A DNA stretch of 54,011 nt, taken from the NCBI GenBank assembly GCA_017464305.1, contig JAFUDS010000023.1, positions 1 to 54,011 on the forward strand, in the 5' to 3' direction. This stretch comes from Clostridia bacterium (lineage in GTDB: Bacteria; Bacillota; Clostridia; Christensenellales; Aristaeellaceae). Shown piece by piece: positions 22,025-30,320 of this stretch (its first letter is position 1; every line of letters starts with the position of its first letter). A model generated the notes under the pieces. The model was not told where the DNA came from, did not search any database, and saw only the letters and a program-made list of their open reading frames with translations. The position numbers were made by a program, and so were the translations under genes.

Positions 22025-24259
22025 TTACTCTTTTCCTTTGAGAAGCAGCGAACGGTACACATTCGCAATCCCCTCCTGAATATCCTTCCAATCCCGGGCC
22101 TGGGCCGTTTCCAGTCCCTGGCGGTACAGCTTCTCTCTTAGTTCACCATCCGATACGATCCTTTCAATGGCCTGCACCGCTGCGTCGATCTCCCCCAGGG
22201 GATACAGCAGGCAATTCTCCCCCTCCCGCAGGTATTCCGCGTTGCCGCCGTTGGGAGCCACAACGCAGTATCCCCCCGTAGCCATCATCTCCAGGGGCGG
22301 ATAGGAAAAGCTCTCCAGCCAGCTGGATTTCAGCAGGATATCGCAATCCCCGTACACCTTCGGGGTCTCCTCATAGGGCACCGCGTGCAGGAATTTGTCG
22401 CAGCGGTAGCCCCCCTTGGGAGAAGCGTTATAGGACATATACCAGATTTCAAACCTCTCTGGATCCAATTTATCCACAATGCGGAAGCTTTCGTCCACGT
22501 TCTTGTAATCTACGGCGCAGTCGCCTTCGATTAAAACCCGCACCTTGCGGCCCGTCCAATCCCGGAGGTGGGGGGCATACTTTCCACTCTCCAACCCGTT
22601 CGGAAGATAGATCGGATCCTGCCCGTACCTTTCCCGCAGCCAGCCCTCGCACCAGCGGGAGATGGTCAGATACTGCCAATTGTCATCCAGGAAGTAGGTT
22701 CCCTCGCAGGCCAGCCGCTGGGGATCCTCCAGGGGATAGAAATCCCGCTCGAAATTCTGAACCAGATAAGCCCGTTTCCCCACCCGGGGATACTGCTGAA
22801 TCAAGGGCACCGTGGTCCACATGGTGGCCACCATCAGATCATAATAGGCGTCCAGATCGCATCCGCCGTCGGCATAGGAGATGCATTCAAAGGAATGGCC
22901 GAACTCCGTCCACACATGCCATTTCGCGGTGGGAGCGATCAGGTCCACATTCCATCCCGCGTCCTGCAGGAAGCAGGCATGCCGCAGGGCCACCATAATT
23001 CCGCCGCTCATCTCACAGGAGGGCAGCACAAAGGCCGCGTGGGGAGCCCGGAGCTTCTCATAAATTCGCCGGACGTTGGCAGTATTCTCGGTGGTCACAC
23101 AATGGGCCCGGCAATATTGATAGGCCTCCTCGCCCACCTGCCGCCGCAGCTCCTTTTGCTGCACCGCCCGGGTCAGCACCTGGTACCATTCCTCTGCCCC
23201 CGCCAGGAAGCCTGTTTTCTCCTCCTGAATCAGCTCCGCGAAGGGGCCCATGCGGCTGGCTACCGTGGGCACCTTCACCAGCGCCGCCTCCACCCATTTG
23301 TTCTCAGATTTGGCCTCGTTGAAAACCGTACTCACCACCGGGGCCAGATTGATATCCACCCCGGCGATGATCTCCGGCAGGGCTTCCCAGTCCACAAAGG
23401 GCTTCTGAATTACCCGATCCGCGTATTGCTGCAGCTCCGTCGGCAGGTCGATGAGACCCATCAACAACAGCTTCACCTTTGGGTTCTCCTCCATGACCCG
23501 GAGAAGCGCCGGCTGAATCATCTCAAAATCCGCGTTATGGGTAATGCTGCCGCTGAAATAGCCCAGGATCACCTCATCTTCCGATGCTTTCCCTTGCTTT
23601 GCTGGCTTCGCCGCCCTCCAAGCCGCTTCGCTGAGCTGCACCATCCTTTCCGAGGCGCAGTTGCGGTTGATGTACACCGGCATCAGGATTTTCGACAGCT
23701 CCCGCTGCAGCCGGGTGGTAGTGGTAGTAGCGGCCTGGCACATCCGCAGGGTGGCGCCATAGCGCTGCACTCCTTCGTCGTACAGGGCCCGCTCCTCCCG
23801 GCTCATGCACTGCACCTGGGGGATGGTATCCGTGTACGATGTGTCGATCACCAGATCGTCGATATCAAAGACCACCTGCTTGTTGAGGGCCTTCGCCTGT
23901 CGAATCGCTTCCCCGATGGGCTCCGAAAAAGGGCAGCGATAAAAGACAATGACATTCCCTTCCTGGCTGCTTTCCGGGGTACAGCTTCTGGCGTCTATCT
24001 CCTGCACGGTATATCCCGCGGCCCGCAGCTGCTCCATCTGGTGCAGCACCCGATAGCGATAGGGATGGGGCGCCTGTTCCGGCGGGCAGCCGTTCACAAA
24101 CAGGATGTCCCGAATGACCCGCTCCGGCCGGCTATACTCATGGTGCTCCCGCTCATATTTCTGAATAAATCGTTTCCTTGCTTCCTGGAAGGTTCCCTTC
24201 AGCCCGGCTTCATCCCAGGATCGCAGGAACAGATAACTCCATCTCAAGGCTCTGCCCAT
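22025..24259 (-). CDS. Double GT-B glycosyltransferase (GT4 / WsaF-like)
   Basis: A 744-residue protein with two GT-B units. The first (about 45-405) contains [12 protein letters not shown] and [14 protein letters not shown] early and the GT4-like donor region [19 protein letters not shown]. The second (about 408-744) opens with [19 protein letters not shown] and ends with a donor site [19 protein letters not shown], resembling rhamnan-elongating WsaF. Such fusions add two successive sugars, often rhamnose, to a growing polymer. The start has a GGGGAGGAAAT site. The first 22 codons are duplicated without change at 30251-30320, and a diverged broken copy of the rest lies at 29793-30250. Confidence 0.8.
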
Positions 24260-24262
24260 ATT
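24193..24262. repeat. Left copy of a perfect 70-bp direct repeat
   Basis: These 70 bases are identical, in the same orientation, to 30251-30320. They comprise the first 22 codons of the double GT-B gene and its upstream edge. Identity stops sharply on both sides. The two copies bound the AT-rich accessory island. Confidence 0.95.
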
Positions 24263-24296
24263 TCCTCCCCGGCATCAGTTTTTCTCCCAAACGGGA

Positions 24297-24380
24297 TCAG
24301 TCATACCGAATCCACATGGCCGGGCGCACCACAGCCACGTTCAGATTTCCCACATCATCCCAATTCCGCCAATTGTTGGA
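24297..24380 (-). pseudogene. DUF6273 C-terminal remnant
   Basis: In the minus frame ending at stop 24297-24299 the sequence reads NNWRNWDDVGN then LNVAVVRPAMWIRYD, a typical DUF6273 ending; compare VRPAMWIRFD of the intact protein at 16195. Nothing upstream in this frame is recognisable. The 3' end of the TOPRIM gene overlaps it in another frame, so the junction of inserted and resident DNA lies at about 24380. Confidence 0.75.
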
Positions 24381-28673: not shown

Positions 28674-29531
28674 CTAACCTCCATATAATTGAGATAAGAA
28701 ATGGTTCACCTTATTTACATCTTCATCACTAAAACCTGAAAAGAAACCCAGTGACTTCAACTCATAGGGAAATTTCTGCATATACTCAATGGATATCTTA
28801 TTTCTTTTTTTTAATTGATCTATTGCCAACAAATAAGCTTTTTCCATTGGTATTTGCGAAAACCATTCTAGGCATTTTCCAAAGTAAAAAGCTTGAGTTG
28901 ATTTAGGTAGATTTCCATAGTAAGAAAGTAATATTCTTTCCTGCTCATCCTTGTGAAGAACTTTAAAAATCACTTCATATTCAAGCTGATTAGCATATTT
29001 TTCCGGTTCTTTTCGCTTGCTACGACTAAACATATTTTTTGAGTTAAGTACATATATTCCAACCGGTGAGTCTCTCAAAATATGCCTTAATTGCTCATAC
29101 TTTACTTCCGATGTGACAACGCACACATGATCAAAGGCCTTATAATAGTCCGTTATTTGTCTCTCAAGCCTTTCAAAAGTATCTAATTCTGTCTTTATCT
29201 CATACACAACAGCCTTCCCATTGATCATAATAAAATCTGCTTTGGATTTGCCTATTGGAATCTGCGTCAAAGCAGTAGTAGTTGTCAAGCTATGTTTTCC
29301 TAGCAACAATTTATTGAATAAAGTATTTTGATAAAAATATTCATTGCGATACTCTTTTCCCATCCAATTATATATCTCACTAATCAACCTTAAATTTTCT
29401 TTGTTCTCGGGATCTCTCACATATCTTTTGACCACGGCAAGATATGTTCCACTTTCACCCACAATCAAATCGCGAAGTGTATTTTTTGTGAAGAGTCGAT
29501 TTAGAATTAGATTCTTGCTTTCCATCTTCAT
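28674..29531 (-). CDS. sce7726-family PD-(D/E)XK nuclease-like protein
   Basis: A 285-residue protein. Asp99 in GKSKADF and E111-x-K113 in AVVYEIKTE form a PD-(D/E)XK core, and the flanking helices (FERLERQITDYYKAF) fit. Overall it matches the sce7726 family. It is the first gene of a three-gene operon with sce7725 (7-bp gap) and RES. ATG 29531 or the ATG two codons later may be used; the ribosome site is weak. A nuclease role is inferred from the motif. No clear promoter was found in the 260 bp upstream. Confidence 0.75.
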   Translation of the reverse strand: MKMESKNLILNRLFTKNTLRDLIVGESGTYLAVVKRYVRDPENKENLRLISEIYNWMGKEYRNEYFYQNTLFNKLLLGKHSLTTTTALTQIPIGKSKADFIMINGKAVVYEIKTELDTFERLERQITDYYKAFDHVCVVTSEVKYEQLRHILRDSPVGIYVLNSKNMFSRSKRKEPEKYANQLEYEVIFKVLHKDEQERILLSYYGNLPKSTQAFYFGKCLEWFSQIPMEKAYLLAIDQLKKRNKISIEYMQKFPYELKSLGFFSGFSDEDVNKVNHFLSQLYGG

Positions 29532-29792
29532 TCTCTCTTCATTCTTAAATTTATTGGATCCACCAATTCTTCATCTTTTGAACGTTCACCTTGACACAAC
29601 AGAAGCATACACACTTTTTGCATGCTTATCCGATAGGAACACAGAAACTCAAATTCCTCCGCCTCTCCATATCCATGATTACTTCACTAAGCACCAAAGC
29701 TACATCCTATATCTATTATTTTTTTCTACAAAATATCGCTACTATCAATCATATTTTTGATAAATGGCTAACAGAGTTACATATGCTCACAC

Positions 29793-30317
29793 TCATATAC
29801 TTTCTTTTCCTTCGCGAAGGAGCGAACGATACACGCCTGCAATCCCATACACCTTGGGAGTCTCCTCATATGGCACTTCGCGCAGGAATTTGTCGCAGCG
29901 GTAGCCCTCCTTGGGAGAAGCGTTATAGGACACATACCAAATTTCGTACTTCTCCGGTTCCAATCTTTCCACAATGCAGAAGCTCCCGTCCACTTTCTTG
30001 TAATCCAACGCGCAATCGCCCTCAATCAAAACGAGTACCTTTTGCCCCGACCAGTCTCGGACGAGGGATCATCTTTTTTCGCAATCCAGCCTATCGGAAA
30101 GGTAAATCGGGGCTTGACCATATTTTTCCCGCAACCAACCTTCGTGTAAACGAGAGATGGTCAAATACTACCAGGCATCCAGAAAATAGGCCCCACCCAG
30201 GGACATTGCTGAACAAAAGGCACCGTGGTCCACATGGTGACCACCATCAATTCCCTTCAGCCCGGCTTCATCCCAGGATCGCAGGAACAGATAACTCCAT
30301 CTCAAGGCTCTGCCCAT
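29793..30317 (-). pseudogene. Broken copy of the double GT-B gene
   Basis: Three pieces of a paralogue of the 22025-24259 gene are joined. The first 22 codons (identical at DNA level) start at ATG 30315-30317 after GGAGGGAAT. A middle piece is recognisable as [44 protein letters not shown] and [12 protein letters not shown] but carries stops and frameshifts. The last residues read VYRSLL. About 470 and 100 residues are missing at the two joins. The second join falls on GGGATTGC, part of an 11-bp sequence (ggggattgcga) present twice in the intact gene, so deletion between short repeats is likely. Confidence 0.85.
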
Positions 30318-30320
30318 ATT
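30251..30320. repeat. Right copy of the perfect 70-bp direct repeat
   Basis: Identical to 24193-24262 over all 70 bases, while the rest of the broken GT copy is clearly diverged from the intact gene. This copy has the natural operon position, 30 bp after the stop of the upstream GT2 gene. Confidence 0.95.

Follow-up and report, generated by a model that had tools for sequence, protein, structure and literature searches.

A perfect direct repeat that reads as two glycosyltransferase gene starts, and the putative conflict genes between them, in a clostridial surface-glycan operon

What does a perfect direct repeat mark when it lies inside a surface-glycan operon and brackets genes of foreign composition? 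We addressed this question in a 54,011-base stretch of DNA from a Clostridia bacterium, which is one entire contig of a draft assembly (G000; 2.53 Mb, 51 contigs, 68.6% complete) and is referred to here as the window. Two of its segments, 24193-24262 and 30251-30320, are exact copies of each other (70/70 bases, same orientation, start-to-start distance 6,058 bp), with five AT-rich open reading frames (ORFs), the cargo, between them. An earlier sequence-only reading had reported this identical pair, which our sequence comparison bore out, and had taken it for the bounds of an accessory island. We favour a different explanation and consider it probable: the repeats would be the 5' ends of two copies of a GT4 glycosyltransferase gene in a modular surface-glycan operon, the right copy having been gutted and its start homogenised by recent homologous recombination, and the DNA between the two, about 5 kb, would consist of conflict genes acquired horizontally. 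Gene distributions were determined in 45 genomes of the genus and 308 of the family, the home genome being counted in both sets, and the site itself was compared with other genomes of the genus (G005, G013 and G014). The repeat copies, the cargo genes and the adjoining glycosyltransferase genes and remnants are all encoded on the minus strand.

The direct repeat and the two GT4 copies

The left repeat copy (24193-24262) is the start of an intact GT4 gene (22025-24259), comprising 67 coding bases and 3 bases upstream. This gene encodes a protein of 744 amino acids with a Glycos_transf_1 domain (Pfam), which has a relative at the level of 93% amino acid identity in G014, the closest relative found. 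The right copy (30251-30320) is the start of a second, gutted GT4 gene and ends exactly at the first deletion junction of the latter. Identity breaks off as sharply as had been described at 24192/30250, but on the other side it continues outward, with one mismatch, to 24268/30326 (75/76 identical bases) and spans the ribosome-binding site. Leaving aside a tandem array at positions 1-136, this is the sole same-strand exact repeat of at least 40 bp in the window, where by analytic calculation about 2e-33 exact 70-mer pairs would be expected by chance. No third copy was found in the 2.53-Mb home assembly, in which the two window copies were the only matches.

The second GT4 gene (29793-30317) can be followed from start codon to stop and, compared with the intact gene, has suffered three or more internal deletions; its part at 29793-30250 is a decayed GT4 copy that had previously been overlooked. 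Two repeat pairs link it to the intact GT4 (22349-22572 with 29844-30067, 83%; 22778-22836 with 30191-30249, 88%). From 30326 down to 29803, the relic aligns with the intact gene in collinear pieces of 98.7% (76 bp), 88% (59 bp), 77% (369 bp) and 82% (44 bp) identity, between which, judging from the coordinates, about 1,356, 67-78 and 270-278 bp were lost. The stop of its last open piece, at 29793, falls two codons past the GT4 end. What had been read as a copied gene start only is the beginning of a whole GT4 relative, gutted by deletions. As the right copy runs on into this relic, the right repeat belongs to the gutted gene, and sequence comparison identifies the repeats as paralogous or allelic GT4 gene starts rather than as island boundaries or mobile-element ends. 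The cargo proper occupies approximately 24.38-29.53 kb, and the right repeat copy lies inside the GT4 relic instead of bounding an island.

Over 369 bp, the relic is 76.7% identical to the window GT4 and 77.8% identical to the G014 GT4, the two intact genes being 90% alike. Its longest open piece (73 codons) showed a proportion of synonymous differences (pS) of 0.45 and a proportion of nonsynonymous differences (pN) of 0.10 against the window GT4, which indicates that purifying selection acted on the relic while it diverged and that its decay came afterwards. With these rates, the chance that all 67 coding bases of the repeat would agree is about 5e-7 (hand arithmetic, with sites taken as independent). 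A general constraint on the GT4 start is not the reason for the identity, since the first 23 codons displayed a pS of 0.60-0.92 in 14/15 gene pairs; the exception is the window-G014 pair, with 0.06 in these codons versus 0.31 in the remainder of the gene. The two GT4 starts in the window, which are one pair of copies only, have no differences, versus the pS of 0.45 in the relic. Because a perfect start does not fit this divergence, the comparison suggests that the GT4 start was recently exchanged between the copies, either through a crossover or through gene conversion.

Upstream of the gutted GT4 lies the gene of a two-domain GT2 glycosyltransferase (30348-32189), whose stop is 30 bp from the ATG of the right copy. 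This spacing had been taken to mark the right copy as the one in its natural operon place, but the left copy is in operon position as well: the stop of a DUF6273-type C-terminal remnant (24297-24385, ending in VRPAMWIRYD-stop) lies 37 bp before the ATG of the intact GT4. The 5' edge of the remnant is approximate, having been set by eye, and overlaps the 3' end of a cargo gene, that of the DUF3226 protein. We call the remnant DUF6273-type because 36 bp of it are 89% identical to the end of gene 16195-17601, which carries a DUF6273 domain (Pfam). Removal of 24263-30320 in silico left one repeat copy and an intact 744-residue GT4 ORF, 30 bp behind the GT2, and the expectation that loss of 6,058 bp would restore an uninterrupted operon thus held.

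GT4 was present in 7/45 genomes of the genus (E-value ≤1e-80). In G014, it lies directly behind a different GT2, and the two sugar-nucleotide genes behind it (assigned by eye) share 99-100% protein identity with those of the window. The empty site anticipated in relatives was therefore found in so far as G014 lacks cargo before GT4, but the GT2 upstream of it is not that of the window; the incomplete home assembly contained no ortholog of the G014 GT2. In G005, a relative of the window GT2 (38%) is located directly upstream of GT4. Comparison of the left copy, the right copy and G014 revealed that upstream homology ends 9-17 bases before the GT4 ATG. Three different upstream neighbours, the GT2 of the window, that of G014 and the DUF6273-type remnant, meet GT4 near its ribosome-binding site. 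The break in homology points to the GT4 start as an exchange point for upstream modules.

Two further observations concern these flanking genes. A single ORF of 1002 amino acids in G014 matches two separate window glycosyltransferases, 17663-19765 (62%) and 30348-32189 (50%), suggesting a fusion or a split. At 17013-17356, the DUF6273 gene contains SPTDL repeats, tandemly arranged with lengths of 48, 42 and 30 bp, in which length variation is possible.

The cargo genes and their distribution

The five cargo ORFs have a G+C content of 0.33-0.43, whereas the intact GT4 reaches 0.58, the GT2 upstream 0.57 and two long outer stretches 0.51-0.53, which agrees with the earlier description of AT-rich genes (0.33-0.43 versus 0.51-0.58 around them). 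They are rare in the genus, as the sce7726 family gene described below occurs in 1/45 genomes and the ATPase gene in 2/45, and judged by composition and distribution the five-gene block is foreign. None of the cargo ORFs was recognised as an integrase or transposase in scans against Pfam, PADLOC and NCBIfam, which covered these five ORFs in full and the other window genes in part; the sequence-only reading had likewise stated that no integrase is present. ARAGORN found no tRNA in the window.

The first cargo module is a pair of genes for an AAA_15/AAA_21 ATPase (25105-26172, 355 amino acids) and a DUF3226 protein (24355-25101, 248 amino acids), both assigned by Pfam. The two genes are adjacent and match the PADLOC models PDC-M38A (E-value 2e-55, residues 2-355) and PDC-M38B (E-value 7e-90, residues 1-247), respectively, over nearly their full length, which is the combination that defines PDC-M38. 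The DUF3226 protein is Toprim-like, with weak, partial similarity to the retron Ec67 and RT-Toprim models, and no AriB model of PADLOC matched it at an E-value of 0.05. The ATPase also resembles the AbiLi and AriA models, its AriA match (4e-25) being one of many to ATPase models. Besides its two occurrences in the genus (E-value ≤1e-20), it was detected in 4/308 genomes of the family (E-value ≤1e-35). One relative of the ATPase (44%; locus L036, contig G043:C37, 1390-7941) has a different downstream gene and stands among acetyltransferase-, epimerase- and chain-length-like genes (assigned by eye); direct repeats flank that region, 300 bp long at 100% and 295 bp long at 98% identity, and a 57-bp element is present there four times.

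The second module comprises three overlapping genes. The first encodes an sce7726 family protein (28674-29531, 285 amino acids), a predicted PD-(D/E)XK nuclease. It is followed by the gene of an sce7725 family protein (27707-28684, 325 amino acids; E-value 2e-99), which overlaps both neighbours, and by that of a RES-domain protein (26628-27710, 360 amino acids; Pfam RES, 2e-14), a predicted NAD-consuming toxin effector. The middle of the RES protein is HEPN/RES-NTD1-like, below the Pfam cut-off, and its N-terminal region contains Cys residues. In 13 operons, residues D99, E111, K113, Q125 and Y129 of sce7726 are invariant and fit D...ExK with a downstream QxxxY, which we take to be the PD-(D/E)XK nuclease motif. 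Also invariant in the 13 operons are R181, R183, Y218, E229 and S323 of the RES protein, positions that presumably include the catalytic residues of the RES domain. In PADLOC-DB 2.0.0, sce7726 gave a partial match to the model cll (E-value 4e-16, residues 97-249), and sce7725 and the RES protein gave none. The 455 bp that separate the two cargo modules (26173-26627) have no recognised content and may be another gene remnant.

RES matches were found in 4/308 genomes of the family, full-length outside the home genome in G246 only (55%). The three-gene operon was present at 5/5 genome loci and additionally in G246. Of eight records inspected in plasmid and phage collections, six contained it. Among 19 distinct viral sequences, each of which has the sce7726-sce7725 pair, the complete operon was seen in 10. 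Besides varied genomes, its carriers include plasmids, viral contigs and a contig of a conjugative element. From these features it looks like an uncharacterised conflict operon. In an uncultured genome (L021, 69-6608), the operon is followed by mannose-1-phosphate guanylyltransferase-like and ABC-transporter-like genes (assigned by eye), which is again a glycan-type neighbourhood. Five viral contigs (L051, L067, L068, L074 and L076) carry sce7726-sce7725 without RES near repressor-like or terminase-like genes (assigned by eye), with sce7725 being partial in L074 and L076.

A proposed history of the locus and its rivals

The history that we propose starts from what was observed directly: the anatomy of the locus, the decay of the relic, the foreign composition and the distribution of the cargo, its conserved operon and the invariant residues. 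The operon holds two GT4 copies, one of them gutted. An exchange at the GT4 start would have connected the relic with the side of the GT2 found there today, and a later deletion would have removed the remainder of the exchanged tract in the relic, this order of events being the one we infer. The cargo may have come in between the copies by recombination at shared glycan genes, without a recombinase of its own. The 70-bp repeats are predicted to be still able to recombine, which would delete 6,058 bp. From what is known of their families, the ATPase/DUF3226 pair and the sce7726-sce7725-RES operon may act against phages or plasmids, and the cargo as a whole probably consists of anti-phage genes; in the three-gene operon, the nuclease and its partner protein could unleash the RES toxin, whereby NAD would be depleted.

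Several observations weigh against this history. The assembly is a draft in 51 contigs and 68.6% complete, and a wrong join at the 70-bp repeat is possible. In G013, a relative of the window GT2 (41%) lies downstream of GT4; the order of GT2 and GT4 is thus not fixed, and no order can count as natural. The GT4 starts of G014 and the window differ at just 1/69 bases, and 29/722 windows of 69 nucleotides along this gene pair have at most one mismatch, which indicates that local identity varies by itself. Finally, RES is missing beside sce7725 in two of the eight collection records, in which no sce7726 was recognised either.

The rival that survives best, although we give it a small probability, is an insertion of the Campbell type, in which a circle bearing the cargo together with the gutted GT4 and the DUF6273-type remnant would have entered an uninterrupted GT2-GT4 operon by a single crossover at the 70-76 bp GT4 start. 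Such an event automatically leaves a near-perfect direct repeat in exact register on each side and accounts for the clean GT2-GT4 junction upon removal, and a GT2-type gene directly before GT4 is known from G005 and G014. However, neither a circle nor a replicon or an integrase was seen, the circle required would already have contained a gutted GT4 with a GT4 start joined to it, and an exchange between two resident GT4 copies yields the identical picture.

A slightly smaller chance falls to an assembly chimera, in which two real places or strains were joined at a collapsed 70-bp repeat, so that GT2 would truly abut the intact GT4 and the cargo would belong elsewhere or on a circle. The draft state of the assembly speaks for it, as does the repeat, which is short enough to confuse small k-mers. 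The contig, moreover, begins in a 36-bp tandem array (positions 1-136), as is common for short-read contigs, and this array is probably the place where the assembly broke. Against a chimera, the relic retains its gene order and its stop beside the cargo, and the DUF6273-type remnant on the opposite side is in operon position, so that both cargo flanks are glycan-operon DNA.

A site-specific island (an integrative and conjugative element, an integrative and mobilizable element (IME), a prophage or a transposon) with attL/attR or a target duplication as its ends is very improbable and already largely contradicted: a foreign block does lie between direct repeats, and in other places recombinase or conjugation genes are found close to the three-gene operon (an excerpt of PMC9394441 being among the sources), but the cargo ORFs include no integrase or transposase, the window has no tRNA, and the repeat consists of the beginning of a GT coding sequence, its right copy continuing into the GT4 relic.

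With recombination between two resident GT4 copies as the preferred explanation, we tentatively put forward a broader proposal, which from the sequences is possible though doubtful. Here, sce7726-sce7725 would form the core of a mobile system, so far undescribed, that acts against phages or plasmids; in it, the PD-(D/E)XK protein and its partner would sense invading DNA and the three-gene form would release an NAD+-depleting HEPN/RES effector. In this lineage, the system would be traded at glycosyltransferase gene starts, so that coat and defence could change in one recombination event.

Comparison with known systems

The single locus studied here has accessory conflict genes sitting in a surface-glycan operon without an integrase of their own, and makes duplicated glycan genes a likely source of homology for such genes. 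It also points to a widespread operon of nuclease-like sce7726, sce7725 and a RES toxin, for which PADLOC-DB gave a partial match to one gene only; if this operon is a defence system, that would be easily tested.

Among described defence systems, the ATPase/DUF3226 pair corresponds to the PDC-M38 candidate of PADLOC-DB, since an AAA ATPase gene and a DUF3226 gene lie side by side and both are matched over their full length. It differs from the AbiL and PARIS/OLD-type ATPase and Toprim pairs, of which PARIS and class 4 OLD combine an AriA-type ATPase with an AriB Toprim nuclease, in that its Toprim part is weakly recognised and lacks an AriB match. RES toxins of RES-Xre toxin-antitoxin modules degrade NAD+. 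The cargo protein shares with them a RES domain with invariant Arg, Tyr, Glu and Ser positions, but no Xre-type gene is found among the cargo ORFs, its N-terminus is HEPN/RES-NTD1-like and Cys-bearing, and it is encoded together with sce7725 and the PD-(D/E)XK-like sce7726. Fusions of HEPN/RES-NTD1 to RES, some with a Zn ribbon, are described in part of PMC3710099, where RES is predicted to be an RNase rather than an enzyme that degrades NAD.

The sce7726-sce7725-HEPN/RES operon is the more novel part of the locus. We found no functional study of it in the open literature searched. For an IME of Pseudomonas aeruginosa PA_HN002, an excerpt of PMC9394441 names RES, sce7725 and sce7726 proteins as cargo without proposing a function, so that all three families occur together on a mobile element there as well. 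Similarly, sce7726 and sce7725 are listed for a low-GC Leptospira region in an excerpt of PMC12457778.

The locus as a whole looks like an accessory locus of an already known, integrase-free kind. Hotspots without integrases that recombine in flanking core genes, E. coli rfb among them, are described in the part of Oliveira et al. 2017 (PMC5635113) consulted here. As in such hotspots, the window holds foreign genes that are rare in the genus (1/45 and 2/45 genomes) and absent at the site in a relative (G014). The likeness lies in foreign accessory genes, here defence-like, that occupy a variable locus without mobility genes of their own; the difference is that here the same operon gene, intact on one side and gutted on the other, forms both flanks, which has left a perfect 70-bp repeat.

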